Source: Methanolobus tindarius DSM 2278
GTDB taxonomy: Archaea; Halobacteriota; Methanosarcinia; Methanosarcinales; Methanosarcinaceae
DNA length: 64,000 nucleotides
Direction: 5' to 3'
Assembly (NCBI RefSeq): GCF_000504205.1
Contig: NZ_AZAJ01000001.1
Location: forward strand, 1,524,879-1,588,878
Shown here: positions 22,447-54,156 of the stretch, piece by piece
How positions within the stretch are numbered: position 1 is the first letter of the stretch
How the letters are laid out: each line of letters starts with the position of its first letter
Translations under genes and position numbers: made by a program
Notes under the pieces: model-generated
The model's input: the letters and a program-made list of their open reading frames with translations, nothing else
Told to the model about the DNA's origin: nothing
Database searches by the model: none

Positions 22447-22929
22447 ATGAGTTCAGATATCAATATTCAACGGGCAAAAGATCATGATAATCTTACCGAT
22501 ACGGAAAAAAAGCATATTCCTGTCATTGAGGCTCCTTCAGAAGTGAAAGCCGGGGAACCTTTTGATGTTAAGGTAACTGTAGGAGCTATTCCTCATGTTA
22601 TGGAAGAGGAGCACTACATAAAATGGATAGAACTGCACCTGAACGGAACTCTTGTGGGAAGAAAGGAACTTCAGGCATCAGAAGGGAAAGCTGAAGCGAC
22701 ATTTACCGCCGTAGGCACTGAAGAGATGATCACTGCAAGAGAAATCCGAAATTGCACAATTCATGGCTTTGGTGTATGTGGTACATGCGGCACAAAATCA
22801 GCTATTGTCAATCTCAAAGCAGTTGAAAGTTGCAATGTTCATGGATTGTGGGAAGATTCGAAAGGTATTGAAATTATTTCTTCTGTTGTCAAAGATGGGA
22901 AGAAATGCACATGGGGTTCCCAGTTGTGA
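22447..22929 (+). CDS. Methanoferrodoxin-type superoxide reductase
   Basis: A 160-residue protein that should reduce superoxide to peroxide. The neelaredoxin/SOR core supplies the iron centre: His23 (KKHIPVIEAP), His50, His56 and the CNVHGLW box with Cys129 and His132. Extra cysteines (Cys103, Cys111, Cys114, Cys154) fit the additional [4Fe-4S] cluster of methanoferrodoxin, a protein described in Methanosarcina mazei. It is 27 bp before mtbA in the same direction with no terminator between, so the two are probably co-transcribed. The link to a methyltransferase gene is unusual. Confidence 0.88.
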   Translation: MSSDINIQRAKDHDNLTDTEKKHIPVIEAPSEVKAGEPFDVKVTVGAIPHVMEEEHYIKWIELHLNGTLVGRKELQASEGKAEATFTAVGTEEMITAREIRNCTIHGFGVCGTCGTKSAIVNLKAVESCNVHGLWEDSKGIEIISSVVKDGKKCTWGSQL

Positions 22930-22956
22930 CTCCATTTAAGTAAGGAGATTATATCT

Positions 22957-23976
22957 ATGACAGAATATACCCCTAAAGAAAGATTAGCGCGTGCATTGAC
23001 AGGCCAGCCTGTTGACAGAATGCCTGCCGTTTCTGTCACCCAGACAGGAACAGTTGAACAAATGGAAGCTTGCGGTGCCTTCTGGCCCGAGGCTAACAAT
23101 GATGCCGAAAAAATGGCCACACTTGCAGAAGCAGGTCATACAGTAGTTGGATTTGAAGCTGTGCGTGTGCCTTTTGATATTACAGCAGAAGCTGAGTTCT
23201 TCGGCTGTGAGATAAAAGACGGTACAAAAGAACAGCAGCCATCTGTTGTAGGTCATGTTGTAAGCAATGTTGAAGACATTGAGAAGCTCAAAGGTTACAG
23301 CCTCGAACACGGCAGGATCGGTGTTGTCTGTGAGGCAATAAAGATACTTGCAGACAAATATGGTGATGAACTTCCTGTCATGGGAAGCATGATCGGTCCT
23401 TTCTCACTTGCACAACACATCAATGGTGATGACTGGTTTATGGCAATCTTCACAGACGAAGCATTCGGTCTTGCCCTCATGGAATTCACAACCGATTTCT
23501 GTGTTGCATATGCAGAAAAAATGGTTGAGAACGGTGCTGATACGATGGTTATCATTGATCCTACGGCAAGTGCACAGCTTATTGGTGCCGAATTCTATGA
23601 AAAGTTTGTTGTACCTTTCCATGCAAAGATAGTTGATGCAATGCACAAGGTCAACGTTCCTGTAGTTCTGCACATATGTGGTGACACCACCCTGGGTCTT
23701 GCTCTTATGGAATCATCAGGTGTAGACGGCATTAGTGTAGACCAGAATGTTGATGTAGCAACCGCCGTTGGCAGTGTCGAAAAAGCTGTGATCGTCGGGA
23801 ACCTTGACCCCGTGAACATGCTCTGGAACCAGACTCCTGAAACCATCAGGGAGCAGTCACAGAAGGTCCTTGATGCAGGAGTGGGCTTGCTTGCACCGGG
23901 CTGTGGTATTGTCAGCAAGACTCCCACAGAGAACCTCCGGGCAATGGTAGAAATGGCAAGGAACCACAAATACTGA
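22957..23976 (+). CDS. mtbA: Methylcobamide:CoM methyltransferase MtbA (copy 1)
   Basis: A 339-residue TIM-barrel enzyme of the uroporphyrinogen-decarboxylase superfamily. It transfers the methyl group from methylated MtmC, MtbC or MttC to coenzyme M. The zinc ligands are His239 and Cys241 (LHICGD) and Cys316 (GCGIVS). Length is that of the methylamine-specific enzyme. A strong AAGGAG precedes the ATG. A second copy begins at 63286, and a degraded C-terminal remnant lies at 34988-35146. Confidence 0.96.
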
Positions 23977-39763: not shown

Positions 39764-41080
39764 ATGTTAGATTTGCTATATTTAAGCCGTCTGCAGTTTG
39801 CAATAACTGTAGCATTCCACTTCCTGTTCGTTCCACTTACACTGGGACTTGCATTGTTAGTGGCTTATATGGAAACAGTCTATTACAAGACCAAGGATGA
39901 AACCTGGCGTAAAATGGCTGATTTCTGGGGAAGGATATTCAAAATAAACTTTGCAATAGGCCTTGTTACGGGTCTTGCAATGACATTCCAGTTCGGTACT
40001 AATTGGGGTCCATATTCAGAATTTATGGGTGACGTATTCGGATCACCACTGGCCGTAGAAGCACTAATGGCTTTCTTCCTTGAAGGAACTTTCTTTGGTG
40101 CATGGATCTTCCTTGACCGCAACAGACAGAAGCTCAAGGCTTTCTCCATGTGGATGGTTGCTCTTGGAACAAACATCTCTGCACTGTGGATCATCACAGC
40201 CAACGGTTTCATGCAGAACCCGGTAGGATACGAGCTGCTACCTGACGGAAGCAAGGTCATAATGACTGATTTTCTTGCGCTTGTAACTAATAGTTATGTA
40301 TGGTACATGCTGGTTCACACACTTCTTTCAGCTTACCTGCTAACAGCTTTCGTAATTCTTGGAATATGTGCCTATCAGTTCCTTAAGAGAAATGACAGCG
40401 AAGTATTCAGAAAGTCATTCAGGATGGCAATTGTCATTGCACTCGCAACATCAATATTGCTTCCTGTTCTCGGACATGGTTATGCGCAATATGTTACAGA
40501 GATCCAGCCGGCAAAGGGCGCTGCAATGGATGCAATCTGGGAAACCGGTTCATCGGTTCCGATGTATCTCATACAGGTTCCGGATTCAAGTACAGGTTCT
40601 AACAGCGTAGAACTACTTGGAATCCCGGGTCTTGCCAGCTTCCTGTATACCGGAAGTTTCAGTGGTACGATCACCGGCCTGAACCAGATGCCAGCCGATG
40701 AGATTCCACCTGTTGGAATGGTATTCTGGAACTTCAAGCTCATGACAGTCTTAGGTTTCGTTTTCATAGCAGAGGCACTCGCAGGTCTATATCTTCAGAA
40801 GACCGGAAAGCTGTACAGGTCTGATCTGTATCTCAAGTTGATGCAGTGGTCCATTCCGCTTCCATTCATTGCCATAATAGCCGGATGGAATGTTGCAGAA
40901 ATTGGAAGGCAGCCATGGATAGTTTACGGACTGCTTAAGACACCTGATGGAATCTCAATGGTTCCAACATCAGAAGTCATGTTGAGTGTTATACTTATAA
41001 CCGGATTCTATGCGATCCTGTGGGTCTTTGAGTATTACCTGATCAAGAAGACTGTTGTCAATGCAATAGGAGCTGAGTAA
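39764..41080 (+). CDS. cydA: Cytochrome bd oxidase subunit I
   Basis: A 438-residue membrane subunit carrying hemes b558, b595 and d. Nine or so helices are visible. Recognisable boxes are SRLQFAITVAFHFLFVPLT (His ligand), the AFFLEGTFFGAWIFLDRN region, YMLVHTLLSAYLLTAF (second His) and GWNVAEIGRQPWIVYG. The quinol-binding Q-loop is short. In a methanogen the donor would be methanophenazine or another low-potential carrier; oxygen removal is a more likely purpose than respiration. The cydB start follows 1 bp after the stop. Confidence 0.95.
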   Translation: MLDLLYLSRLQFAITVAFHFLFVPLTLGLALLVAYMETVYYKTKDETWRKMADFWGRIFKINFAIGLVTGLAMTFQFGTNWGPYSEFMGDVFGSPLAVEALMAFFLEGTFFGAWIFLDRNRQKLKAFSMWMVALGTNISALWIITANGFMQNPVGYELLPDGSKVIMTDFLALVTNSYVWYMLVHTLLSAYLLTAFVILGICAYQFLKRNDSEVFRKSFRMAIVIALATSILLPVLGHGYAQYVTEIQPAKGAAMDAIWETGSSVPMYLIQVPDSSTGSNSVELLGIPGLASFLYTGSFSGTITGLNQMPADEIPPVGMVFWNFKLMTVLGFVFIAEALAGLYLQKTGKLYRSDLYLKLMQWSIPLPFIAIIAGWNVAEIGRQPWIVYGLLKTPDGISMVPTSEVMLSVILITGFYAILWVFEYYLIKKTVVNAIGAE

Positions 41081-41081
41081 A

Positions 41082-42125
41082 ATGCTGGAATTCTTAACAC
41101 ATGATTTACTTGCTAATATCTGGTTCTTCCTCTGGTGCGTAATTTGGGGAATCTACTTCATAGTAGATTCATTCTCACTTGGAGCAGGTCTTATCACACC
41201 ATTCATTGCATCAGATAAGACACAGAGAATTCAGATCCAGAAGTCAGTAGGTCCTTTCTGGGGTGGAAATGAAGTCTGGCTCATACTGGCTGCAGGTGGA
41301 ACATTTGCCGCTTTTCCACTGGTATTCTCAAAGATGTTCACATTCCTCTATCTTCCAATGATGCTCCTTCTTATTGGACTTATAATGAGAGGAATCTCAG
41401 TTGAGTATCTCCACAAGGATGAAAGTCCCAAGATACAGAACATTCTCATGTGGGGATGGTTTACAGGAAGCCTTGTAATCTCACTTGTACTCGGAGTCGC
41501 ATTTGCAAACTTCTTCAAGGGACTAGCAATCGCTGACGGATGGGTTTACCAGGGTACGCTTCTTGGACTTTTCAGTCCTTATGCATTGATTGGAGGAATA
41601 CTCTTTGTGCTTATCAGTGCAACATCAGGTGCCCTGTGGATCAAGATTAAGACAGAAGGTCCAATTGCTACAAAGGCAGAAGATTTCGCAAATAAGAGCA
41701 GTATAGCAGTACTTGTACTCACCCTTGTGTACCTGGTATATTCCTTTGCAGGAATTGCAAATTTCACAGTTAATTACGCTGCAACACCTGTATTCTATGT
41801 GCTGCCGGCAATTGCAGTTCTGACTGCTATCCTTGCAGTTGTTTTTGCAATGAAGGGAAAGGCCTTCCTTGCTTTCTGCTGCAATCTTGGAGTAATACTC
41901 TTTATTGTACAAAGCGGTCTTGCAAGTATATATCCGTACATGCTCAAGTCATCCATTGCGCTTGAATATGGTATTGATATATATCAGGGAGCTTCAAGCC
42001 AGCTTACTCTGACAGTAATGCTTCTGGGAGCACTTGTGTTTGTGCCACTGGTTATCATTTACCAGCTATGGGCTTACACATTGTTCAAGGAAAAAATAAG
42101 AGAAACAGAAACGGTTGATTACTAA
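41082..42125 (+). CDS. cydB: Cytochrome bd oxidase subunit II
   Basis: A 347-residue partner of CydA with about eight helices. Family boxes are WCVIWGIYFIVDSFSLGAG, PFWGGNEVWLILAAGGTFAAFP and the middle region NILMWGWFTGSLVISLVLG. It begins 1 bp after cydA. No cydX-like peptide or cydDC exporter genes are present. A terminator overlaps the stop codon. Confidence 0.95.
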   Translation: MLEFLTHDLLANIWFFLWCVIWGIYFIVDSFSLGAGLITPFIASDKTQRIQIQKSVGPFWGGNEVWLILAAGGTFAAFPLVFSKMFTFLYLPMMLLLIGLIMRGISVEYLHKDESPKIQNILMWGWFTGSLVISLVLGVAFANFFKGLAIADGWVYQGTLLGLFSPYALIGGILFVLISATSGALWIKIKTEGPIATKAEDFANKSSIAVLVLTLVYLVYSFAGIANFTVNYAATPVFYVLPAIAVLTAILAVVFAMKGKAFLAFCCNLGVILFIVQSGLASIYPYMLKSSIALEYGIDIYQGASSQLTLTVMLLGALVFVPLVIIYQLWAYTLFKEKIRETETVDY

Positions 42126-42195: not shown

Positions 42196-44124
42196 TCAGT
42201 TTTCTTTTTCAGGAATTCCGGTACCAAGGAAAATAAGTTTAGTTTCTATCGGAGTACCATCATCACCATCAGTCATTGTGATATCTTCTCTTTGGATGTC
42301 AATATTCACATTTTCAGGTTTCAGGTCAGATTCCTGCATGTATTCAAGTATCAGTTTTTTCCCGTGCTCGTTTGCATATTCCAGAGCATCTGAATAAGTT
42401 GGGAACTCCTTTCTTTCCACTGGAGAAAACACCAGAATGCTTCTTTCAGTCTTCTTGTAAAATGATTTTACAAGTATCTCAATGCTTTTTACTCCTTTAC
42501 CCACAAGAGCCCCGACAGCATTTCCAACATCGGCATGTTCAGGAACTACAATATCGGCAATAATAAGCCTGTTAAGTTCTTCAACATAGCAACTGACAGG
42601 TCCACCAAGAAGCACCACCGGAACATTCACTTTAAACTGTGAGAGGAAATCCCCGCGTATCATTTTTTCTATCTCAGGCTTTGAAATTCCTTTATACATA
42701 AAGCTCATGAGATCAAGTGCCATATTGATTGCGACTTCCTTTTTAATATGCATACAAAGTTCGGTCTCATCCATTGGTGTGAGCCTTGCAAGGATCTTTG
42801 CTCCGGTATGTGAGGCTTCAGTGTCCCATTTTGTGTATTCTCCAAGCACATGTAGGGCATCTGTCGGAGTAAAACCGATTGCCTGGACAAGTCTTTTTTG
42901 TATCAGTGAATCAACACTATCCGGAGATATTGGTTTTCCGATCTTCCAGAATATATCGTTCAGTGAGACAGGTTCAAACTGAATTATTTCCATGAGTTCT
43001 TTTTCAAATGGACTAAGGTTTGTGGCGTCTTTTCCCGTCCTGACGAAAAACTTAGTTGGTTGCACATTTTCTGCAAGATGCACCCTTGAAGGTGTCCTGC
43101 CAGATTTTAACTGCTCCATGAAACCGGGATATTTAATAGCAGCAAGGCAGAGTGGAACAACCCTGCGTGGTCCGATATTGACATTGCGGTTTTTGATCCA
43201 TACATGACTGTCACCGCCCATGGCAGATGTTTCCATACGTATGGCCTTCACTTTTGTATGCCATCCTCCGACCACGGCTCCTGTGTCCACAAGTTCCGGG
43301 AAACCACTGTAATTCAGTGAAACATCGGTACTTGTTCCTCCGACATCGATAACTGCACAAGTATCATTTCCTGAAAGGAAGGAAGCACCCATAAGACTTG
43401 CAGCAGGTCCTGAAAATATAGACTCGATAGGTTTTTCCATGGCCTCGTGTATGCCTATTACAGAGCCGTCACATTTCAGCATCATGAGTTTTGCATCTAT
43501 GCCACGTTTTTTAATATCGGTTAGAATTGCGTGGATGAATTGGTCTGCAATCGGAAGTAGTTGTGCGTTAAGATAAGCTGTAACACCTCTTTCATATGCT
43601 CCAAGATCCTGTGACAGTTCGTGTCCACAAACAATTGGAAGTCCGGTTAGCTCTGAAAGCATATCCCTCACTTTTATTTCATGATCAGGATTACGGATAC
43701 TGAAATATGAGGAGACAGCAAAAGCGGAAACCCTTTCTTTGACTTTAAGAGCATATTCCCTTATGGCTTCCATATCAAGAATATCGTCTTCAAGCCCGGC
43801 TACGTTGTGTCCACCTTTTACTACAATGAAATCGGCTATTGGTGTATTTGCAGGGAGTGTGTGTTTTCCTATGAGTATAAGAGCAACCGGGTAGCCGGTT
43901 TTTTCAAGTATGGTGTTGGTTGCAAGGGTTGTTGAAACTGAAACAAGTTTGACATCAGACAGATACTTGCCGTCAAGTCCATCGATTGCATTCTCTATTC
44001 CTGTTAAAAGGTCAGGATATGTCGTAAGGGCTTTATTGGAATCAATAACCTTTCTGTCAGAATCCCTTACAATTACTGCATCGGTGTACGTCCCACCGGC
44101 ATCTATTCCAAGACTGTACTGCAT
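42196..44124 (-). CDS. HyuA-like ASKHA ATPase family protein (copy 1)
   Basis: A 642-residue protein of the hydantoinase/oxoprolinase HyuA type. Phosphate-1 is GIDAGGTYTDAV (6-17), with SGPAAS at 238-243, phosphate-2 DVGGTSTDV (260-268) and a conserved ETSAMGGDSHVW box (298-309). All ATP-site elements are intact. It is directly downstream of a paralogue (stop and start abut), so the two are one operon. No HyuB partner gene is present, which argues against a true hydantoinase. It lacks the iron-sulfur domain of RamA. Substrate unknown; ATP-driven activation of a corrinoid protein or hydrolysis of a small cyclic amide are possibilities. Confidence 0.85.
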   Translation of the reverse strand: MQYSLGIDAGGTYTDAVIVRDSDRKVIDSNKALTTYPDLLTGIENAIDGLDGKYLSDVKLVSVSTTLATNTILEKTGYPVALILIGKHTLPANTPIADFIVVKGGHNVAGLEDDILDMEAIREYALKVKERVSAFAVSSYFSIRNPDHEIKVRDMLSELTGLPIVCGHELSQDLGAYERGVTAYLNAQLLPIADQFIHAILTDIKKRGIDAKLMMLKCDGSVIGIHEAMEKPIESIFSGPAASLMGASFLSGNDTCAVIDVGGTSTDVSLNYSGFPELVDTGAVVGGWHTKVKAIRMETSAMGGDSHVWIKNRNVNIGPRRVVPLCLAAIKYPGFMEQLKSGRTPSRVHLAENVQPTKFFVRTGKDATNLSPFEKELMEIIQFEPVSLNDIFWKIGKPISPDSVDSLIQKRLVQAIGFTPTDALHVLGEYTKWDTEASHTGAKILARLTPMDETELCMHIKKEVAINMALDLMSFMYKGISKPEIEKMIRGDFLSQFKVNVPVVLLGGPVSCYVEELNRLIIADIVVPEHADVGNAVGALVGKGVKSIEILVKSFYKKTERSILVFSPVERKEFPTYSDALEYANEHGKKLILEYMQESDLKPENVNIDIQREDITMTDGDDGTPIETKLIFLGTGIPEKEN

Positions 44125-46080
44125 TTATTCTACCTCCATTTTCCTTCCTTTTCCGGCTTCTCCAATACCTGAAAAGGCGAGTCGTGTTTCTACAGGAAGC
44201 CCTCCTTCGTGTGTAATAATATCACTTCGATGCATATCGATGCTAACATCAGCAGTGTTCAGGCCGGCATCACTCATGTAGTTCATTATGAGCTTGCTGC
44301 CAATTTCTTCACCGAATTCCAGAGCTTCGTGATATGATGCGAATTCCTCCCTGCCTCCCGGGAAGAATACAACAAAAGATGATGTTTTGAGATTGTATTT
44401 TGATTCCGTGTAGCTGGCTTTTATCAGAACCTCAAGTTTCTTTGCACCTTTTCCTGCAACTGCACCAACGGCGTTTCCGACGCTGCAGTATTCGGGAAGG
44501 ATAATCTGTGCATCTATGAAATCTGCAAGTCCCTTCTCATAAGCTTTTACAGGTCCGCCAAGAAGAACCACGGGGAGATAGACTTTGAATCCGGCAAAGA
44601 ACTTTCCCCTGAGCACTTTTTCTATCTCTTCCCTGCTTACACCTTCAAGCAGGAATGAAATAAGGTTCTGTGCCATGTTTATGGCAACATCTTCCTTTAT
44701 TCGGAGACAAAACTCCTCTTCATCGGTTCCTGAAAGGGCAGCCAGAATACCGGCTCCCAGAACTGAAGCTTCCTTGTTCCACTGGGTGTATTCCCCAAGA
44801 ACATGGAGAGCGTCTGTGGGTGTAAATCCAATTGTTTTTATGAGCCTTTTCTGTATGAGCAGGTCAAGTGTAGCTGGGCTCGGAAGCCTGTTCTCATTCC
44901 AGTAAATCTCACTGACAGTAAGTGGTTTGTCTCCTATTCTTGAAAGTAAGTCATCTTCTGCAGAACTGATGTCCGGTAATTCCAGTCCTGATCTGATAAA
45001 GAATTTTGTTGGTTGCAGGTTCTCACCTATTTGATTGCGGAGAATAACCTGATTTTGTTTGAGCTTTTCAATTATTTCGGGGTGTTCACTGGCAGCAAGA
45101 CAAAGTGGAATTACCCTTCTTGGTCCAATATTTGTCACATGGTTTCTGACCCATACATGACTGTCTCCTCCCATTGCGGATGTTTCCATTCTTATGGCTT
45201 TGACCTTTGTCTGCCATCCACCTACCAGAGCACCGGAATCACTGAGTTCGGGAATACCGTTGTGTATAACTGAAACATCGGTACTGGTTCCTCCAACATC
45301 GATGACAACACAGTCCTCAGTTCCTGAAAGATATGATGCTCCAACTAAACTTGCAGCAGGTCCTGAGAATACAGATTCTATCGGTTTTTTCGGGGCTTCA
45401 GAGATACCTACAACTGAACCGTCACATTTGAGCATCATGAGTTTTGCGTCAATATTTCTTCTTTCTATTTCAGAACTGACAGCTTTCATAAAATGACTTG
45501 ATATTGGTATGAGTCTGGCGTTCAGGTATGCAGTGATACCTCTTTCATATGCACCAAGATCCTGTGAAAGTTCATGTCCGCAAACAACCGGAAGTCCGCT
45601 GAGTTCAGTGATAAGTTCTTTTATTTTTAATTCGTGATCCGGGTTCCGTACACTGAAATAGGATGAAACTGCAAATGCAGAGACTTTATCTTTTACTCTG
45701 AGTACAAATTCCCTTACAGATTCCAGGTCAACAGGACAAACTTCGTTCCCTGCACTGTTATGTCCTCCTTTTACAAGGCTGAAATGTTCGATTTTTGATC
45801 TGTTGGGTACATCCGCATCATTTGCAAGAATAAGAGCTACAGGGTAGCCTGTTTTTTCAAGTACACTATTGGTTGCAAGGGTTGTAGAAACAGATACATA
45901 ACCGACCTTTTCAAGGTGATGCTGATCAAGCCCGTCCAGAGTATTCCTGATGCCTTTTAAAAGGTCAGGATATGTAGTCAATGACTTGTTTGAATCTATT
46001 ATGCTGCCATCAGAGTCCCTGATCAGGACAGCGTCAGTATAGGTGCCTCCGGCATCTATTCCTAGGCTGTAATCCATCAA
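44125..46080 (-). CDS. HyuA-like ASKHA ATPase family protein (copy 2)
   Basis: A 651-residue paralogue, first gene of the leftward pair. It has the same boxes: GIDAGGTYTDAV near the N-terminus, SGPAAS, DVGGTSTDV and ETSAMGGDSHVW. The C-terminal 50 residues diverge from copy 1. Its ribosome site (AGGAGGT) lies inside a perfect 6-bp inverted repeat (46081-46097) touching the start codon. It is head-to-head with the PAS/GAF sensor gene at 46847, so the two may be controlled from one intergenic region. Confidence 0.85.
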   Translation of the reverse strand: MMDYSLGIDAGGTYTDAVLIRDSDGSIIDSNKSLTTYPDLLKGIRNTLDGLDQHHLEKVGYVSVSTTLATNSVLEKTGYPVALILANDADVPNRSKIEHFSLVKGGHNSAGNEVCPVDLESVREFVLRVKDKVSAFAVSSYFSVRNPDHELKIKELITELSGLPVVCGHELSQDLGAYERGITAYLNARLIPISSHFMKAVSSEIERRNIDAKLMMLKCDGSVVGISEAPKKPIESVFSGPAASLVGASYLSGTEDCVVIDVGGTSTDVSVIHNGIPELSDSGALVGGWQTKVKAIRMETSAMGGDSHVWVRNHVTNIGPRRVIPLCLAASEHPEIIEKLKQNQVILRNQIGENLQPTKFFIRSGLELPDISSAEDDLLSRIGDKPLTVSEIYWNENRLPSPATLDLLIQKRLIKTIGFTPTDALHVLGEYTQWNKEASVLGAGILAALSGTDEEEFCLRIKEDVAINMAQNLISFLLEGVSREEIEKVLRGKFFAGFKVYLPVVLLGGPVKAYEKGLADFIDAQIILPEYCSVGNAVGAVAGKGAKKLEVLIKASYTESKYNLKTSSFVVFFPGGREEFASYHEALEFGEEIGSKLIMNYMSDAGLNTADVSIDMHRSDIITHEGGLPVETRLAFSGIGEAGKGRKMEVE

Positions 46081-46097
46081 AGTACCTCCTAGGTACT
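46081..46097 (-). promoter_or_regulatory. Hairpin over the ribosome site of HyuA-like copy 2
   Basis: AGTACC (46081-46086) and GGTACT (46092-46097) pair with a 5-base loop. The SD bases fall within the stem and loop, directly beside the ATG at 46080. Confidence 0.5.
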
Positions 46098-46846
46098 GTC
46101 AGAGCTCAATTTTTTTTTTTCAAAAAGAATATTCTGGTTTTGGAAAGGAAAGACAGATAAAATCAATCTTCCACTAATCATTCTTTTAAGCATATTTCTA
46201 CCTCAAAAATAAAAATAATAGGAAATTCCTGCCCCTTTATAGTTTTAGTGGAGTTAAAACCCAGGAGCAAATGAAGGAGGTAGAATTTCCAAAGGATTTG
46301 TAGACCCAATTACTAATCAAGGTGACTTGTAAAATCCCAAACACTACTATGAACAATCTAGTATTTATATTTTATGATACCTCTCTCCTTAATTTCACTG
46401 TAAAATACAGTAATATCACGCTAATGCTAGTGTTTTTGGTATTTTTTCTTCAAAACCTATTTGAAATCCTTATGCACAAGATATTTATATTGATTCTTTT
46501 TCTCGTTTTTACGTTGGGAGAAATTACATATTATTAAAGTTTTACTTACCTCTCTAAACTCTCTTTCTTCGTCCAGAAAACGATAGTTTAAAACTATCTA
46601 TATATATTTTGTGCAGGGTCATTTTTTTATTGTTGTTTGCTCATATTCTATTACTAGCATTTTAAAGAGCATGCAAGGGCATGCATATATATTGTTGCAT
46701 AAAATTTATATATGATTACCGGAAGACTCCAATCGTTAATAATATATACTGAAATGCTACTTCCAGTGTCAAAGTAAAAAAACACATTTAAATTTGAGAC
46801 TCATGTAAGTTTTGAGCTTCTATCCACCGTAGCAGCATGAAAATGA
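46098..46846. promoter_or_regulatory. Divergent intergenic region, HyuA-like pair / PAS-GAF sensor
   Basis: An AT-rich 750-bp stretch with several TATA-like runs (about 46597-46610 and 46683-46711). A 71-codon hydrophobic frame at 46322-46537 has no ribosome site and biased A/T composition, so it is not called. Otherwise nothing recognisable. Confidence 0.3.
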
Positions 46847-49441
46847 ATGAATGCAATTTTGGGCGTGGTATACATATCAGATACAAAAATTTCCGAAAAC
46901 AGTAGTGTTCAGAAAGGAAATGTTCCTGACACTGTTTTAGTCGACAAAAAACTCGAAGCAGTTTACAACAGCAGTCCAGTCATCTCTTTTATTTGGAAAG
47001 CTGAAGGTAACTGGCCTGTTGAATATGTTTCCGGGAATATTACTCAGCTTGGATACTCGCCAGATGAATTCCTTTCAGGAAAGCTGGCATATGGGGATAT
47101 TGTTTTCCCTGATGATCTTGACAGGATTCTTCTTGAAGTCAAAAAACATTCTGAGAAAAAGAACACATCCTATTTCTCTCTGAATTATCGAATTCTGACC
47201 AGTTCTGACGAAGTACGTTGGGTTACTGAAAGATCTTTTATCAAAAGGGATGAAAATGGGAACATTACTCATTTTCAGGGGATTATTATAGATAATACTG
47301 AACTGGAAAAAACGGAAAGGGAGCTACTGGAAACCGGTAAAAAATACAAGATAATATTTGAGAGGTCTCCGGTAGGGATTCTTTATTTTGATGAAAATGG
47401 AATAATCACTCACTGTAACAAAAGTTGTTCCAGCATAATTGGTGCTCCGGTAAAGAAAATAGTCGGTTTCAGCGTTCTTTCCTCTCTTAAAGATGAAAGG
47501 CTTAAAAATGCAGTGGATGTTGTTTTCCTTGGGAATCCGGGTTTTTATGAAGGTACATTTGTCTCCAGTATAAGTGGAAAACAAATAGCATTAAAAGCCA
47601 GTTTTACTCCTGTAATGGATGATGATGGTTCTTTACTTGGTGGTATCGGAATACTTGAAGATATATCAGTCAGTAAAGATGCAAAAGAAAAACTGGCTCT
47701 CAACGAGATGCGACTTGAAGCCCTGCTGAAATTGTACCAGATGCAGGATTTTCCGATGAGTGAAATTGCAGAATACGCAATTCAGAAAGCTGCCGAACTA
47801 ACCACCAGCACTACAGGTTATTTGGAATTCCTGAATGAAGATGAGAACGTTCTGGAAACATATCACTGGCCCGTGGATGTTGAACCAGGTCTGTCAGGTA
47901 GTGAAGAGCCCTTTGTGCATCCTCTCAAATTAACCGGTTTCTGGGGAGAGGCCATACGTGAAAGAAAACCCGTAATAGTCAATACTCCATATGCTTCGGA
48001 TAATCTTGATGAGATCTACCCCGGCAAAAAAGAACGCATGCTAAATCATATAACAGTCCCCGTATTTGATAATGAGCAGATAGTAGCAGTTGCAAGCGTT
48101 GCTAATAAGTCAAAGAACTATGACGAGTCCGATGTACGCCAACTGACACTTCTTATGGAAGGTATGTGGAAACTTGTCCAGTACAAGAACACAAACGAAG
48201 TTTTGTATGAAGCTCTAAGGATGCGCAGGATGCTTGAATCTATCATGAGTTCAAGTCCTGCTATTGTTTTCCTATGGAAACCTGAACAGGACTGGCCTGT
48301 TGAATTTGTTTCTGAAAATATTAAGCAGTTTGGCTACAATGTGAATGATTTCATCTCAGGAAAAATAATTTATGGTGACATAATTCATCCATCTGATCTC
48401 CATAGGGTAAGGAGTGAAGTTGAAAGAGCATCAAGGGAAGGTTTCTCTGATTTTAGTCAGGAATACAGGATACTTACAAAATCCGGAGATGTAAGGTGGG
48501 TAGATGAAAGGACACTGCTACACTATAATGAAAGAGGTATGGTGGATTATCTTCAGGGTATAATTGTTGATATAACTGAACGCAAGCAGGCTAATAATTT
48601 CCTGCGTATTGAGTGTGATCTTGATAATGTGCTTGGTGAAACAGGAGGACTTGAAGAAACCTTTGAGAAATTGCTTGATTTTACCCTTGAAGCTAAGGCT
48701 ATTGATTCCGGTATAATGTATGTTGTGGACGAGCTGACAGGAGGATTTGAAGCCATTTCCTATCGTGGCCTGTCCGAAAATTTTGTCTCTTCATTGGCTA
48801 ATTTCGGTCCGAACACACTTATGGCACGTCTTTTTACAACAGGTTTCCCCGTGTATAAGTATTTCTCAGAGATCAATATGATGATGCCTGCTGTAAATCT
48901 TGATTTTGAAGGCTTACAGGCAATGGCCTTTATACCTGTAAAATTCAATGAAAAGCTGGTGGCTGCTATTGTGCTTGGTTCTCATACAGAGCTGGAGATT
49001 CCTGCAAACTCAAGGAACCTAGTAGAAACCATAGCCAATCAAGTTGGTATCATCATATCCAGGATGAAAAAAGATTCCGGTGTCCAGAAAAGTAAGAACA
49101 ATATGAATTCTCTGCTTGATGCACTTGATGAGGTTGTTTTTATAATGGATATGGAAGGCAAGATTCTTCATATTAATAAAACTCTTATTGAAATTCTTAA
49201 CTATTCATCAAGGGACCTTGAAATGAAGGATTTCCTGATGCTATATCCGCAAGACTGGGAAGACGATGTTCTGTCCACACTGGACGAGATTATGGCAGGA
49301 AAACTTTCTACTTGTGATATTCCACTTGTAAGCAAAGAAGGTATTCTTGTGCCTGTGAAGTCAAAATTTACAATTGGTGACTGGGGCGGACAGGATGTTC
49401 TTATATCCATATCTTCCCCGATAAAAGAGCCTGGAACTTAA
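46847..49441 (+). CDS. Multi-domain PAS/GAF sensor without kinase domain
   Basis: 864 residues, with no membrane helix and no histidine kinase or other output domain. Domain order by pattern is PAS (about 35-155, with FIWKAEGNWPVEYVS), PAS (165-280), GAF (about 290-450), PAS (460-580, FLWKPEQDWPVEFVS, a near copy of the first), GAF (about 590-740) and a C-terminal PAS (750-864). The GAF domains resemble those of cytoplasmic methanogen sensors such as MsmS, which bind heme, but heme binding here is only a possibility. It must act through a partner. The stop overlaps that of the convergent HyuA-like copy 3 (TTAA). The nearest neighbours on both sides are HyuA-like genes. Confidence 0.85.
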   Translation: MNAILGVVYISDTKISENSSVQKGNVPDTVLVDKKLEAVYNSSPVISFIWKAEGNWPVEYVSGNITQLGYSPDEFLSGKLAYGDIVFPDDLDRILLEVKKHSEKKNTSYFSLNYRILTSSDEVRWVTERSFIKRDENGNITHFQGIIIDNTELEKTERELLETGKKYKIIFERSPVGILYFDENGIITHCNKSCSSIIGAPVKKIVGFSVLSSLKDERLKNAVDVVFLGNPGFYEGTFVSSISGKQIALKASFTPVMDDDGSLLGGIGILEDISVSKDAKEKLALNEMRLEALLKLYQMQDFPMSEIAEYAIQKAAELTTSTTGYLEFLNEDENVLETYHWPVDVEPGLSGSEEPFVHPLKLTGFWGEAIRERKPVIVNTPYASDNLDEIYPGKKERMLNHITVPVFDNEQIVAVASVANKSKNYDESDVRQLTLLMEGMWKLVQYKNTNEVLYEALRMRRMLESIMSSSPAIVFLWKPEQDWPVEFVSENIKQFGYNVNDFISGKIIYGDIIHPSDLHRVRSEVERASREGFSDFSQEYRILTKSGDVRWVDERTLLHYNERGMVDYLQGIIVDITERKQANNFLRIECDLDNVLGETGGLEETFEKLLDFTLEAKAIDSGIMYVVDELTGGFEAISYRGLSENFVSSLANFGPNTLMARLFTTGFPVYKYFSEINMMMPAVNLDFEGLQAMAFIPVKFNEKLVAAIVLGSHTELEIPANSRNLVETIANQVGIIISRMKKDSGVQKSKNNMNSLLDALDEVVFIMDMEGKILHINKTLIEILNYSSRDLEMKDFLMLYPQDWEDDVLSTLDEIMAGKLSTCDIPLVSKEGILVPVKSKFTIGDWGGQDVLISISSPIKEPGT

Positions 49442-51372
49442 CAGTATTCCAGGCTGTCGTCTCTGTTTCCTACTCCAAGGACTACAAGTTTAGTTTCCAT
49501 GGGAGTTTTCCAGCCCACAGGGATGACTTCTTCTTTTTTAATATCTATCTTTATGTGGCTAGGGTCAAGTCCTGCTTCTTTCATATAGCTGAGCACGGTG
49601 GTTTCACCAAGGTTTACAGCATAGTCCAGAGCTTCCTGATATTCATAGAAGTTGTTCTTTCCATGTTCTGAGAAAACAAGGAATTCCCAATCAGGAGCAG
49701 CCATGGATGCAGGTCTTATAAGTACTTCAAATCTGCGTATGCCTTTTGCAGCCAGCGCCCCGGCAGCATTTCCAACACTTGAATATTCAGGAAGGATTAT
49801 TCTGGCATCCAGTATTTCCTGCATTTCTTTTACGAATGCGGATACAGGTCCTCCTATTAATACTATAGGTACCTCTATCTTAAACTTTGCAGGTGACTGG
49901 ATATCGAACATTTTTCTTATCTCAGATTTTTCAACTCCGTCAAAGAAGAATGATACAAGGTCACATGCCATGTTCTTTGAAAATTCTTTTTTGATATGTT
50001 GGGCAAATTCATGCCTGTTCATTCCTACAAGGGAACCAAGCATGTCCGCACCCACATTTGCAGCTTCAACATTCCTTTCAGTGTATTCACCGAGTACGTG
50101 AAGGGCATCTGTAAGTGTGAAACCAATTGGTTGCAACAATCTTTTTTGTATGAGGCTGTCAAATACCTTGCTTGCAGGGAATTTTTTTATGCGGTTAAAG
50201 ATTTCTGTTGTGGATGTTGGTTCCTTTTTAACAGCTTCAAGAACTTCCTGTTCCTCCTGACTTGCTTCCAATGCTTCATAATCTGTCCTTAGATAGAATT
50301 TAGTTGGCTGGTAATTCACTCCAATTTTCAGTTTTGATGGCATTGGATTTGCTCTGAGTTGTTCAAGGAAATCCGGGTAAAGTACAGCAGCCCTGCAGAG
50401 GGGAATAACTCTTCTTGGGCCTATATTGATATTTGCTCCTTTTACCCATACATGACTATCGCCTCCCATAGCTGATGTTTCCATTTTAATGGCTTTAACT
50501 CTCGTTTTCCATCCGCCTACAACTGCGCCTGCATCGCTCATTTCAGGAACACCTTTATAGATTACAGATATATCCGTGCTGGTTCCTCCTACATCTATTA
50601 CGGCACATGTTTCTTCATTTGCGAGGAATGAGGCACCTACAAGACTCCCCGCAGGTCCTGAGAATATAGATTCTATAGGTTTTTTAAGAGCACTCTGTAT
50701 TCCAATTACTGAACCATCACATTTGAGCATGAATACTTTTGCATCAATTCCTCTGGATTTAATTTCAGCTTCTACTGTCGTCATAAATCTTTCAGTTACA
50801 GGTATTAATTGTGCGTTCAAAAATGCTGTAACAGCTCTTTCAAATGCACCGAGATCCTGAGAAAGTTCATAACTGCAGACGACTGGAAGGCCGGTGTGTT
50901 CCATAATAATATCTTTTGCGCGGAGTTCATGTTCATGATTTCTTACACTAAAATAAGATGAGATTGCAAAGGCTGAAACTTTGTCTTTGACACTAAGGGC
51001 AAATTCCCTGATTGCTTCTTCCTCAAGAGTATCGGTTTCTATACCGTTGTGGTCGTGCCCTCCTTTTACTTTTATGAAATGTTTTGTAGGGAGTTCCTGC
51101 TTGATATCATAATTTCCTATGAGTATCAGGGCTACCGGTGAACCCGTTCCTTCAAGTATACTGTTTGTGGAAAGTGTTGTGGATACTGACACTACTTTTA
51201 CATCTCTGAGACATTCGGGATCCAATCCATCTATGGCTTTTGTTATCCCTTCCAGAGGGTCTGGATAACTTGTCAGTGCTTTGTTTGACTGGATTATTGT
51301 GTTATCATCATCTTTCAAAAGAACCGCATCAGTATACGTCCCTCCTGCATCAATACCTAGGCTATAACTCAT
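49438..51372 (-). CDS. HyuA-like ASKHA ATPase family protein (copy 3)
   Basis: A 644-residue paralogue of the genes at 42196 and 44125. ATP-site boxes are intact: GIDAGGTYTDAV, SGPAGS, DVGGTSTDI and ETSAMGGDSHVW. It overlaps the end of the PAS/GAF sensor gene by 4 bp (convergent) and is divergent from mttB, with 628 bp between them. A GGAG site lies nine bases before the ATG. It has no HyuB partner. Being next to the trimethylamine operon strengthens an association with methylotrophy but does not show function. Confidence 0.85.
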   Translation of the reverse strand: MSYSLGIDAGGTYTDAVLLKDDDNTIIQSNKALTSYPDPLEGITKAIDGLDPECLRDVKVVSVSTTLSTNSILEGTGSPVALILIGNYDIKQELPTKHFIKVKGGHDHNGIETDTLEEEAIREFALSVKDKVSAFAISSYFSVRNHEHELRAKDIIMEHTGLPVVCSYELSQDLGAFERAVTAFLNAQLIPVTERFMTTVEAEIKSRGIDAKVFMLKCDGSVIGIQSALKKPIESIFSGPAGSLVGASFLANEETCAVIDVGGTSTDISVIYKGVPEMSDAGAVVGGWKTRVKAIKMETSAMGGDSHVWVKGANINIGPRRVIPLCRAAVLYPDFLEQLRANPMPSKLKIGVNYQPTKFYLRTDYEALEASQEEQEVLEAVKKEPTSTTEIFNRIKKFPASKVFDSLIQKRLLQPIGFTLTDALHVLGEYTERNVEAANVGADMLGSLVGMNRHEFAQHIKKEFSKNMACDLVSFFFDGVEKSEIRKMFDIQSPAKFKIEVPIVLIGGPVSAFVKEMQEILDARIILPEYSSVGNAAGALAAKGIRRFEVLIRPASMAAPDWEFLVFSEHGKNNFYEYQEALDYAVNLGETTVLSYMKEAGLDPSHIKIDIKKEEVIPVGWKTPMETKLVVLGVGNRDDSLEYC

Positions 51373-52000: not shown

Positions 52001-53491
52001 ATGGTAAAACAATATTACCCAGGTAGAAGTCCATTAGAAGGCGTAACTCTGGAACTTTTTTCTGAAGATGATCTCAGATCCCTTCACTATGCTACAATGG
52101 ATGTCTTCATTAACACTGGTATTCAGGTATCAGATGCTGAAGCAAGAGCTATCTTTAAAGAAGGTGGCTGTTTAGTCGACGAAAAAACACATATCGTCAA
52201 GATTCCTGAGTTTGTAGTAAACAGAGCACTTCGTGACTGCCCATCCAAGTTCGTCCTTTGGGGACGTGACAAGCAGCACAACGTCAAGCAGGAGCACAAA
52301 GGAAAGGTACACTGGACCTGTTTCGGTACCGGTGTCAAGATGTGCAACTACCAGGCACCTGGTAAGTACGTGACTGTTGACTCAACAGACAAGGATCTTG
52401 CAGACACAGCAAAACTCTGTGACTGGGCAGAGAATATCAACTACTTCTCACTTTCAGTTTCCGCAAGGGACTGGGCAGGAAAGGGTGCACAGGATGTCCA
52501 CGAGACACTGACACCATTGATGAACACAACAAAACACTTCCACCACATTGATCCTGTGGGCGAGAACGTTGAGTACTACCAGCAGCTTGCTACTGCATAC
52601 TATGGCGGAGATGACGAGGAAGCACGCAAGAAGCCTATCTTCTCAACATTGCTCTGTCCAACAAGCCCACTGGAGCTTGGTGACAATGCATGTCAGGTTA
52701 TCATAAAGGGTGCAAGATTCGGTACACCAGTTAACGTACTCAGTATGGCAATGGCTGGCGGTTCATCACCAGTACACCTTGCAGGTACACTCGTAACACA
52801 CAACGCTGAGGTACTTTCCGGTATCGTACTCGCACAGCTTGTCAAGCCAGGTGCACCAGTATGGTATGGTAGTTCTACCACAACATTCGACCTGAAGAAG
52901 GGTACTGCTCCTGTGGGTTCCCCTGAACTTGGTCTTATCAGTGCAGCTGTAGCAAAACTCGGTCAGTACTATGGTCTTCCTACATTTGTAGCAGGATCGT
53001 AGGCAGATGCCAAGATACCTGATGGCCAGGCTGGCCATGAGAAAACAATGACTACTCTTTTCCCCGCATTGTCTGGTGCAAACACCCTTTACGGTGCAGG
53101 TATGCTTGAGCTCGGTATGACATTCTCACTTGAACAGCTTGTTCTTGACAATGACATGATCTCCATGACAAAGAAGGCAATGCAGGGAATCCCTGTAACA
53201 GAGGAGACCATGGCAGTTGAATCCATCGACCAGGTTGGTATTGGAAACAACTTCCTTGCACACAAGACAACAAGACAGAACATCAACCTCCCATCCAGCC
53301 CAATGCTCATTGACAGGCTTATGTTCGGAGACTGGGAAATGGCAGGTTCAAAGGACATCGCTACAGTGGCTCATGAAAAAGTCGTTGACATCATGAAGAA
53401 CCACGAAGTTGAGCCAATAGACGCAGATCTGCTCAAGGATATGCAGGCAGTCGTTGAGAAGGCTGACAAGGCATTCAGGGACAGCAGATAA
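52001..53491 (+). CDS. mttB: Trimethylamine methyltransferase MttB, pyrrolysine at residue 334
   Basis: 496 residues with an in-frame TAG at 53000-53002 as codon 334, the known Pyl position in MttB. The context is LPTFVAGS[12 protein letters not shown]. It transfers one methyl of trimethylamine to MttC and yields dimethylamine for MtbB. The frame after TAG remains open for 162 conserved residues. A perfect 7-bp hairpin (ATGGCCA/TGGCCAT, 53022-53038) starts about 20 bases after the TAG. The start is well supported by GGAGGT. Confidence 0.97.
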
Positions 53492-53508
53492 ACAAGGAGG
53501 TTTAAAAA

Positions 53509-54156
53509 ATGGCAACAAAAGAAGAGATTATTGCAAAAGCAAAAGCAGCAATTTTAGACTTTGATGAGGATGCAGCAGCAGAAGCAGCTCAGGAAGGTCT
53601 TGACGCAGATGTAGATCCTGTTGACCTTATTCAGGATGGATTCACTGCAGCTATGAATGAAGTTGGTGACCAGTTTGAAGCAGGTACAGTATTCCTTCCA
53701 CACGTCATTGCAGCATCAGAAGCAATGAGCGCAGGAGTAGCAATACTTACACCAGCTCTTGAAGCAAAAGGTTCAGAAACAGCAAGTAAGGGTACAATAG
53801 TTATCGGTACAATTGAGGGAGATATTCACTCAATCGGTAAGGACATTGTAGCAACAATGCTCAAGATCGCTGGTTTCAAGGTTGTAGACCTTGGAAGAGA
53901 TGTAGCTATCGGTAAGTATGTCGAGGCTGTAAAAGCAAACAAGGCTGATGTAGTAGCTTCATCTGCTCTTATGACCACCACAATGGTCAGCCAGATCCAG
54001 GTCGAAGAACAGCTCAAGGAAGCAGGAGTTCGCGATTCCGTTAAGACAATGGTCGGTGGAGCACCTGTAACCCAGGACTGGGCAACAAAGATCGGCGCAG
54101 ACATCTACGGAGAAAACGCAACAGACGTTGTAACAAAACTGAATGCACTCTTCTGA
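53509..54156 (+). CDS. mttC: Trimethylamine corrinoid protein MttC
   Basis: A 215-residue B12 protein and cognate partner of MttB. The cap domain is rich in Ala and Glu. The B12 domain has GDIHSIGKDIV (DXHXXG), ASSALMTTTMVSQ and GGAPVTQDW. It lies 17 bp after mttB with AAGGAGGT. A 261-bp structured gap separates it from mttP. Confidence 0.96.
   Translation: MATKEEIIAKAKAAILDFDEDAAAEAAQEGLDADVDPVDLIQDGFTAAMNEVGDQFEAGTVFLPHVIAASEAMSAGVAILTPALEAKGSETASKGTIVIGTIEGDIHSIGKDIVATMLKIAGFKVVDLGRDVAIGKYVEAVKANKADVVASSALMTTTMVSQIQVEEQLKEAGVRDSVKTMVGGAPVTQDWATKIGADIYGENATDVVTKLNALF

Follow-up and report, generated by a model that had tools for sequence, protein, structure and literature searches.

What do hydantoinase-like ATPases do in the methylamine island of a methanogen? 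The stretch of DNA analysed here (the window, 64,000 nucleotides of Methanolobus tindarius DSM 2278, contig NZ_AZAJ01000001.1, positions 1,524,879 to 1,588,878) is such an island by sequence, with RamA, pyl genes, MtmB-, MtbB- and MttB-type methyltransferases carrying in-frame TAG codons, and Msr-type regulators. Three HyuA-like genes and the gene of a PAS/GAF sensor are flanked in it by cydAB-like genes (39764-42125) and by the trimethylamine genes mttBC (52001-54156). Methylotrophic methanogenesis, which uses methanol, methylamines and methyl sulfides, relies on corrinoid proteins, whose assembly and reactivation have been described mainly via RamA. A reading of the letters and open reading frames alone (the sequence-only reading) had placed the group at this position, described three paralogues with intact ATP-site motifs, no HyuB gene and an 864-residue kinase-less sensor between copies 2 and 3, and suggested activators or chaperones of the methyltransferase system. 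Its description holds: the three reading frames are intact, the motifs are present and Pfam finds no kinase domain in the sensor; the genome, though, has seven paralogues rather than three. The answer that we favour, tentatively and short of conviction, is that the window proteins come from a family that is specific to the Methanosarcinaceae lineage, present in several copies and made up of stand-alone HyuA-fold ATPases without HyuB, and that they may be isozyme-linked factors that use ATP to assemble or activate corrinoid methyltransferase systems.

The linkage of HyuA-like genes to corrinoid methyltransferase loci is non-random, and this part of the answer is well supported. Among 61 loci in 13 genomes, 28 have a corrinoid-protein gene within 8 kb where 3.7 are expected; the maximum in 5000 random rotations was 12, and none reached the observed number. 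Taking one genome per genus, 15 of 36 loci lie near corrinoid genes against 2.2 expected (0 of 20000 rotations), and with the Mts clade left out the figures are 9 of 28 against 1.7 (2 of 20000). Fused HyuAB genes, taken as a control, have corrinoid genes near them in none of seven cases. This is the association with methyltransferase and corrinoid genes, without HyuB as a partner, that the sequence-only reading had proposed to look for in a neighbourhood survey, and neither of the outcomes that the reading had named as refuting was seen.

All open frames within 6 kb of 100 HyuA-like proteins from 18 genomes were clustered and counted, and Pfam labels were obtained for most of the neighbour families. 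The recurrent neighbours include corrinoid proteins (36), Msr-type (FilR1/Msr) regulators (26), MtaA/URO-D (20), MtaB (19), PAS/GAF sensors (17 and 14), MttB (10), RamA (9) and the DUF1638 family (9), together with CobW-like GTPase, HSP60 and acetate-uptake-like proteins (12 each). The presence of RamA, CobW-like GTPase, HSP60 and DUF1638 among them makes an activator or chaperone role plausible. In Phaeobacter, DUF1638 and a RamA-like protein show cofitness with the B12-dependent methionine synthase (PMC5764234), and a gene found with both therefore fits an assembly or activation module.

Conserved gene orders point the same way. One supported clade of 17 HyuA-like proteins from about eight genera lies mostly in the order sensor, Msr regulator, fused corrinoid/URO-D methyltransferase, HyuA-like, HSP60, with URO-D, RamA, CobW-like or DUF6951 genes downstream of HSP60. 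The sensor of this most conserved operon carries an ATPase domain (HATPase_c in the L094 homologue). A second arrangement, in Methanosarcina, runs mtaC, mtaB, transporter, HyuA-like, HyuA-like, msr, msr; the G074 loci we take to be probably the MsmS, RdmS and MA4395/MA4396 loci of M. acetivorans C2A. The published position of the predicted hydantoinases MA4395 and MA4396 of M. acetivorans, between mtaCB2 and msrDE (PMC11619418), agrees with this arrangement. As a separate observation, the methyl-sulfide operon in many genera has a chaperonin gene of the TCP-1/cpn60 type (L094:11186-12820 and equivalents) directly 3' of its HyuA-like gene.

The family is numerous, and its copies are not matched by HyuB. 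The seven paralogues of the window genome are 49-100% identical to copy 3, and the sole Hydantoinase_B match of this genome falls within a single fused HyuAB gene, an open frame of 1221 residues about 100 kb away, none lying in the window. HyuB was present in 12 of the 13 genomes checked, at most once and always inside its own fused HyuAB gene, and was not found in the other (G065), compared with four to nine HyuA-like copies per genome. None of the 100 proteins had a visible HyuB partner; the search for HyuB itself covered 13 of the 18 genomes. Tandem pairs of diverged members, 57-67% identical, number 17 in the 18 genomes, which suggests that such pairs may form hetero-oligomers. An apparent remnant copy, a short gene fragment with two in-frame TAA stops, is seen at G017:C1:27941-28279. 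A shorter relative of 568-570 residues, about 36% identical over the N-terminal half, occurs in Methanosarcina (near position 9400 of L160, L161 and L162) and adjoins a PAS/GAF protein, with a kinase-like C-terminus in the single one inspected, and a conserved protein of 530-575 residues.

The distribution of the family was compared with that of methyltransferase genes. Of 112 Methanosarcinaceae genomes, 103 have it, and a phylum-wide sample of 393 genomes shows it nowhere outside Methanosarcinaceae. MtaB occurs in 65 genomes of this sample; 57 genomes have both, five the HyuA-like family only and eight MtaB only, and MtaB is thus carried by 57 of the 62 HyuA-like-positive genomes. The five that lack it have MtmB (G052, G053, G030, G033) or MttB (G098). 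Genus g14 has two genomes with MttB and MtmB, both of which carry a HyuA-like gene, and five without the gene, which lack MttB and MtmB alike.

Outside Methanosarcinaceae, full-length bacterial relatives with the same motifs and 30-34% identity were found in plasmid records. In Azoarcus KH32C and at two Mesorhizobium loci the relative has no adjacent HyuB and lies about 1-7 kb from an MttB-family gene and betaine/choline genes. A contig binned as a Bacteroidales metagenome-assembled genome (L044:1-3466) carries mttB, which contains an in-frame TAG, then mttC and, after 180 bases, a HyuA-like gene, all on one strand; its proteins resemble those of Methanosarcinaceae, and the contig may be archaeal and misbinned. 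An unexplained 'HydA', conceivably of the same family, has been reported in glycine-betaine clusters of acetogens (PMC9768040).

The domain content and predicted fold place these ATPases in a definite branch. Hydant_A_N is found in all three window proteins (E 1e-28 to 3e-33), and Hydantoinase_A scores above the Pfam cut-off in all three, covering its first half only (profile positions 1-145 of 291). They contain the phosphate-binding motifs DAGGTYTD and DVGGTSTD and a GGPV...GNAxGA segment, whose key residues are invariant or nearly so across the 100 homologues. In NCBIfam they resemble HyuA-type subunits, with scores far under the enzyme (equivalog) cut-offs. Copy 3 was modelled with AlphaFold2 on an alignment of 45 sequences (predicted local distance difference test score, pLDDT, 87). 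The best fold matches of the model are the HyuA-type subunits of acetone carboxylase (beta), acetophenone carboxylase and caprolactamase; the match to acetone carboxylase beta is full-length (Z 30.3, 517 residues, root mean square deviation 3.9). With RACo, the diol-dehydratase reactivase and the 2-hydroxyacyl-CoA dehydratase activators, the common ASKHA core alone aligns. The predicted fold is therefore that of the HyuA/acetone-carboxylase-beta (AcxA) branch and just distantly similar to RamA/RACo. The structural link to RamA that the sequence-only reading drew from the ASKHA fold is weak.

Comparison with known systems sharpens the distinction. The acetone and acetophenone carboxylase subunits (5svc, 5m45, 5l9w) share the full-length predicted fold (Z 21-30, about 500 residues) and nucleotide-site motifs, but they are only 14-20% identical to the HyuA-like proteins, which have no HyuB-like subunit and a corrinoid methyltransferase context. 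HyuA, caprolactamase CapA and N-methylhydantoinase (6yra, 9h03) have in common with them Hydant_A_N, the first half of Hydantoinase_A and the fold; the HyuA-like proteins differ in standing alone, in leaving the second half of the Pfam domain unmatched and in their low equivalog scores. RamA, RACo and the DUF4445 activases belong to the same superfamily, and a HyuA-like gene adjoins them at several loci, but membership of that group was rejected: Pfam gives the window proteins no RACo_C_ter (DUF4445) match, which the RamA of a neighbouring locus does give, and no Fer4 match, and they lack ferredoxin-type Fe-S motifs. Their conserved cysteines are isolated single residues. A cysteine-ligated cluster was considered for Cys 166, 218 and 256, which are 99% conserved, and rejected as the exceptions fall singly in different proteins; we do not argue for a triad. 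GlmL/MutL and the diol-dehydratase reactivase, both ASKHA factors of B12 enzymes, show a weak MutL match to the N-terminal 50-70 residues only (E 7e-7 to 1e-8) and a Z of 16.6 over the ASKHA core (2d0o), respectively, with no whole-length similarity and different partner enzymes; theirs is nevertheless the kind of action that we propose for the HyuA-like proteins.

The PAS/GAF protein of the window is related to the MsmS/RdmS type. Seven genera have members of its family, nine in all, which lie by mtaCB or mttBC loci and are similar in C-terminal sequence; HATPase_c is missing from the seven members scanned by Pfam. MsmS and RdmS of M. acetivorans are likewise PAS/GAF sensors, beside Msr regulators and methyl-sulfide methyltransferases, and HyuA-like genes lie beside the apparent MsmS/RdmS loci; the window sensor and its scanned homologues differ from them in lacking the kinase ATPase domain. 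Both M. acetivorans proteins are without an H-box, and RdmS, when re-tested, proved to be no autokinase, though it is a kinase whose substrate is unknown (PMC11784639); the regulators downstream of such sensors have no receiver domains (PMC6944256). The proposal that the soluble sensor switches the ATPases gains from the kinase-less homologues near loci in seven genera and loses from HyuA-like proteins that occur without such a homologue and from the ATPase domain of the conserved-operon sensor. The window sensor may belong to the same regulon as its neighbouring ATPases.

The layout of the locus is given in Table 1. The orientations of copy 3 and mttB make it possible that the region between them is a shared regulatory one. 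Elsewhere in the window (22447-23976), a small superoxide-reductase-like (SORL) domain protein was noticed by eye just upstream of a URO-D/MtbA-like methyltransferase gene.

Table 1 Features of the HyuA-like locus (window positions) and members of the sensor family
Feature	Position	Strand	Basis and remarks
cydAB-like terminal oxidase genes, flank	39764..42125	+	read from sequence
HyuA-like ASKHA ATPase copy 1, 642 aa	42196..44124	-	intact open reading frame, Pfam; second in tandem pair, directly after copy 2
HyuA-like ASKHA ATPase copy 2, 651 aa	44125..46080	-	intact open reading frame, Pfam; TTG start as called; first in tandem pair
Kinase-less soluble sensor, PAS-PAS-GAF-PAS-GAF-PAS, 864 aa	46847..49441	+	Pfam; between copies 2 and 3
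HyuA-like ASKHA ATPase copy 3, 644 aa	49438..51372	-	intact open reading frame, Pfam, predicted structure; divergent from mttB
Copy 3 residues 362-432, helices in a winged-helix-like pattern that run into the HyuA motif GFTPTDALHVLG	50077..50289	-	predicted structure
Intergenic region, copy 3 to mttB	51373..52000		gene orientations
mttB, trimethylamine methyltransferase, in-frame TAG (pyrrolysine)	52001..53491	+	open reading frame reading
mttC, trimethylamine corrinoid protein	53509..54156	+	PF02607 match at genome position 1578411
Sensor family members	window:46847-49441; L090, L095, L117, L122, L133, L136, L142, L149		

The main rivals of a helper role are small-molecule activation and regulation. 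The HyuA-like proteins could be small-molecule kinases or ATP-dependent activators resembling acetone carboxylase beta, which make or repair a C1 substrate or a cofactor-related metabolite without HyuB. The full-length fold match and the intact ATP-site motifs are what such enzymes would show, but there is no HyuB-like partner gene and isozyme-linked paralogy would suit a protein partner better than a metabolite, and we consider this unlikely. A regulatory role, in which ATP-bound ASKHA proteins with a winged-helix-like segment relay the state of a PAS/GAF sensor to Msr-type regulators or to DNA, one for each isozyme, draws on the frequency of both kinds of neighbour. A missing signalling link is possible because the sensors have no H-box, the substrate of RdmS is unknown and the regulators have no receiver domains. 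The model of copy 3 also has three helices in winged-helix-like order at residues 362-432, the pattern itself spanning residues ~365-426. This segment, however, runs on into the HyuA motif TDALHVLG, and a Foldseek search with it alone gave nothing significant (best winged-helix protein E 1.6), so that DNA binding through it was set aside; bacterial relatives of the same architecture, moreover, have no such sensors or regulators nearby. Regulation thus seems to us rather improbable.

Methylotrophy islands gather many genes, and the location of proteins with a housekeeping role could be incidental. In keeping with this, roughly half of the copies are found elsewhere, some of them adjoining conserved housekeeping genes; it is opposed by the rotation tests, the HyuAB control, the same-strand Mts operon kept across genera, the phyletic co-loss and the partly independent co-location in bacteria, and we give it little credence. 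Far less probable still is the amide-hydrolysing role that the sequence-only reading had kept in play, with the proteins acting as hydantoinase, oxoprolinase or lactamase subunits together with HyuB. Pfam and NCBIfam similarity to HyuA-type subunits is the argument for it; HyuB, missing apart from the fused gene, is outnumbered in every genome checked, the scores fall well below those of the enzymes, and we rejected it as a likely explanation.

Several observations also weigh against assembly or activation factors as we propose them. No methyltransferase gene lies near about half of the copies: of the 100, 38 are more than 6 kb from every one of the listed genes and 13 others have accessory ones only. 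In structure the nearest relatives are enzymes that activate small molecules and not chaperones. At the plasmid loci of Sinorhizobium, Aliiroseovarius, Rhodobacter, Shinella, Pseudorhodobacter and two further Mesorhizobium, neither annotation nor tblastn revealed an MttB-type methyltransferase. The eight MtaB genomes without the family are all outside Methanosarcinaceae; G091 has MtaB yet no HyuA-like gene, and G001 and G002, both drafts of 75-76% completeness, have MtmB yet no HyuA-like gene. Since MtaB or MtmB occurs without it in some genomes, a HyuA-like protein is not generally required for methyltransferase systems.

Under the mechanism that we infer for the favoured assembly or activation role, HyuA-like proteins would be chaperone- or reactivase-type factors for particular Mts, Mta and Mtt systems, working beside RamA and not in its place. 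They would hydrolyse ATP and bind the corrinoid protein or its methyltransferase, the tandem pairs would assemble as hetero-oligomers, and for the window copies the client would be the trimethylamine system. More broadly, and with less confidence, they may form a separate class of HyuA-fold, HyuB-less helpers of corrinoid methyltransferases, one per isozyme and some as heteromeric pairs; methylotrophic methanogens and certain bacteria with MttB-family enzymes would use them for loading, repairing or switching the B12 protein. A literature search returned no functional study of the family; it found just a mention of MA4395/MA4396 as predicted hydantoinases and the acetogen 'HydA'. Nearly all sampled Methanosarcinaceae have, in up to nine copies and with links to particular methyltransferase isozymes, a family whose annotation as 'hydantoinase' is probably misleading, and M. 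acetivorans offers a short list of genetically testable targets, MA4395/MA4396 together with the copies that adjoin the Mts methyltransferases.

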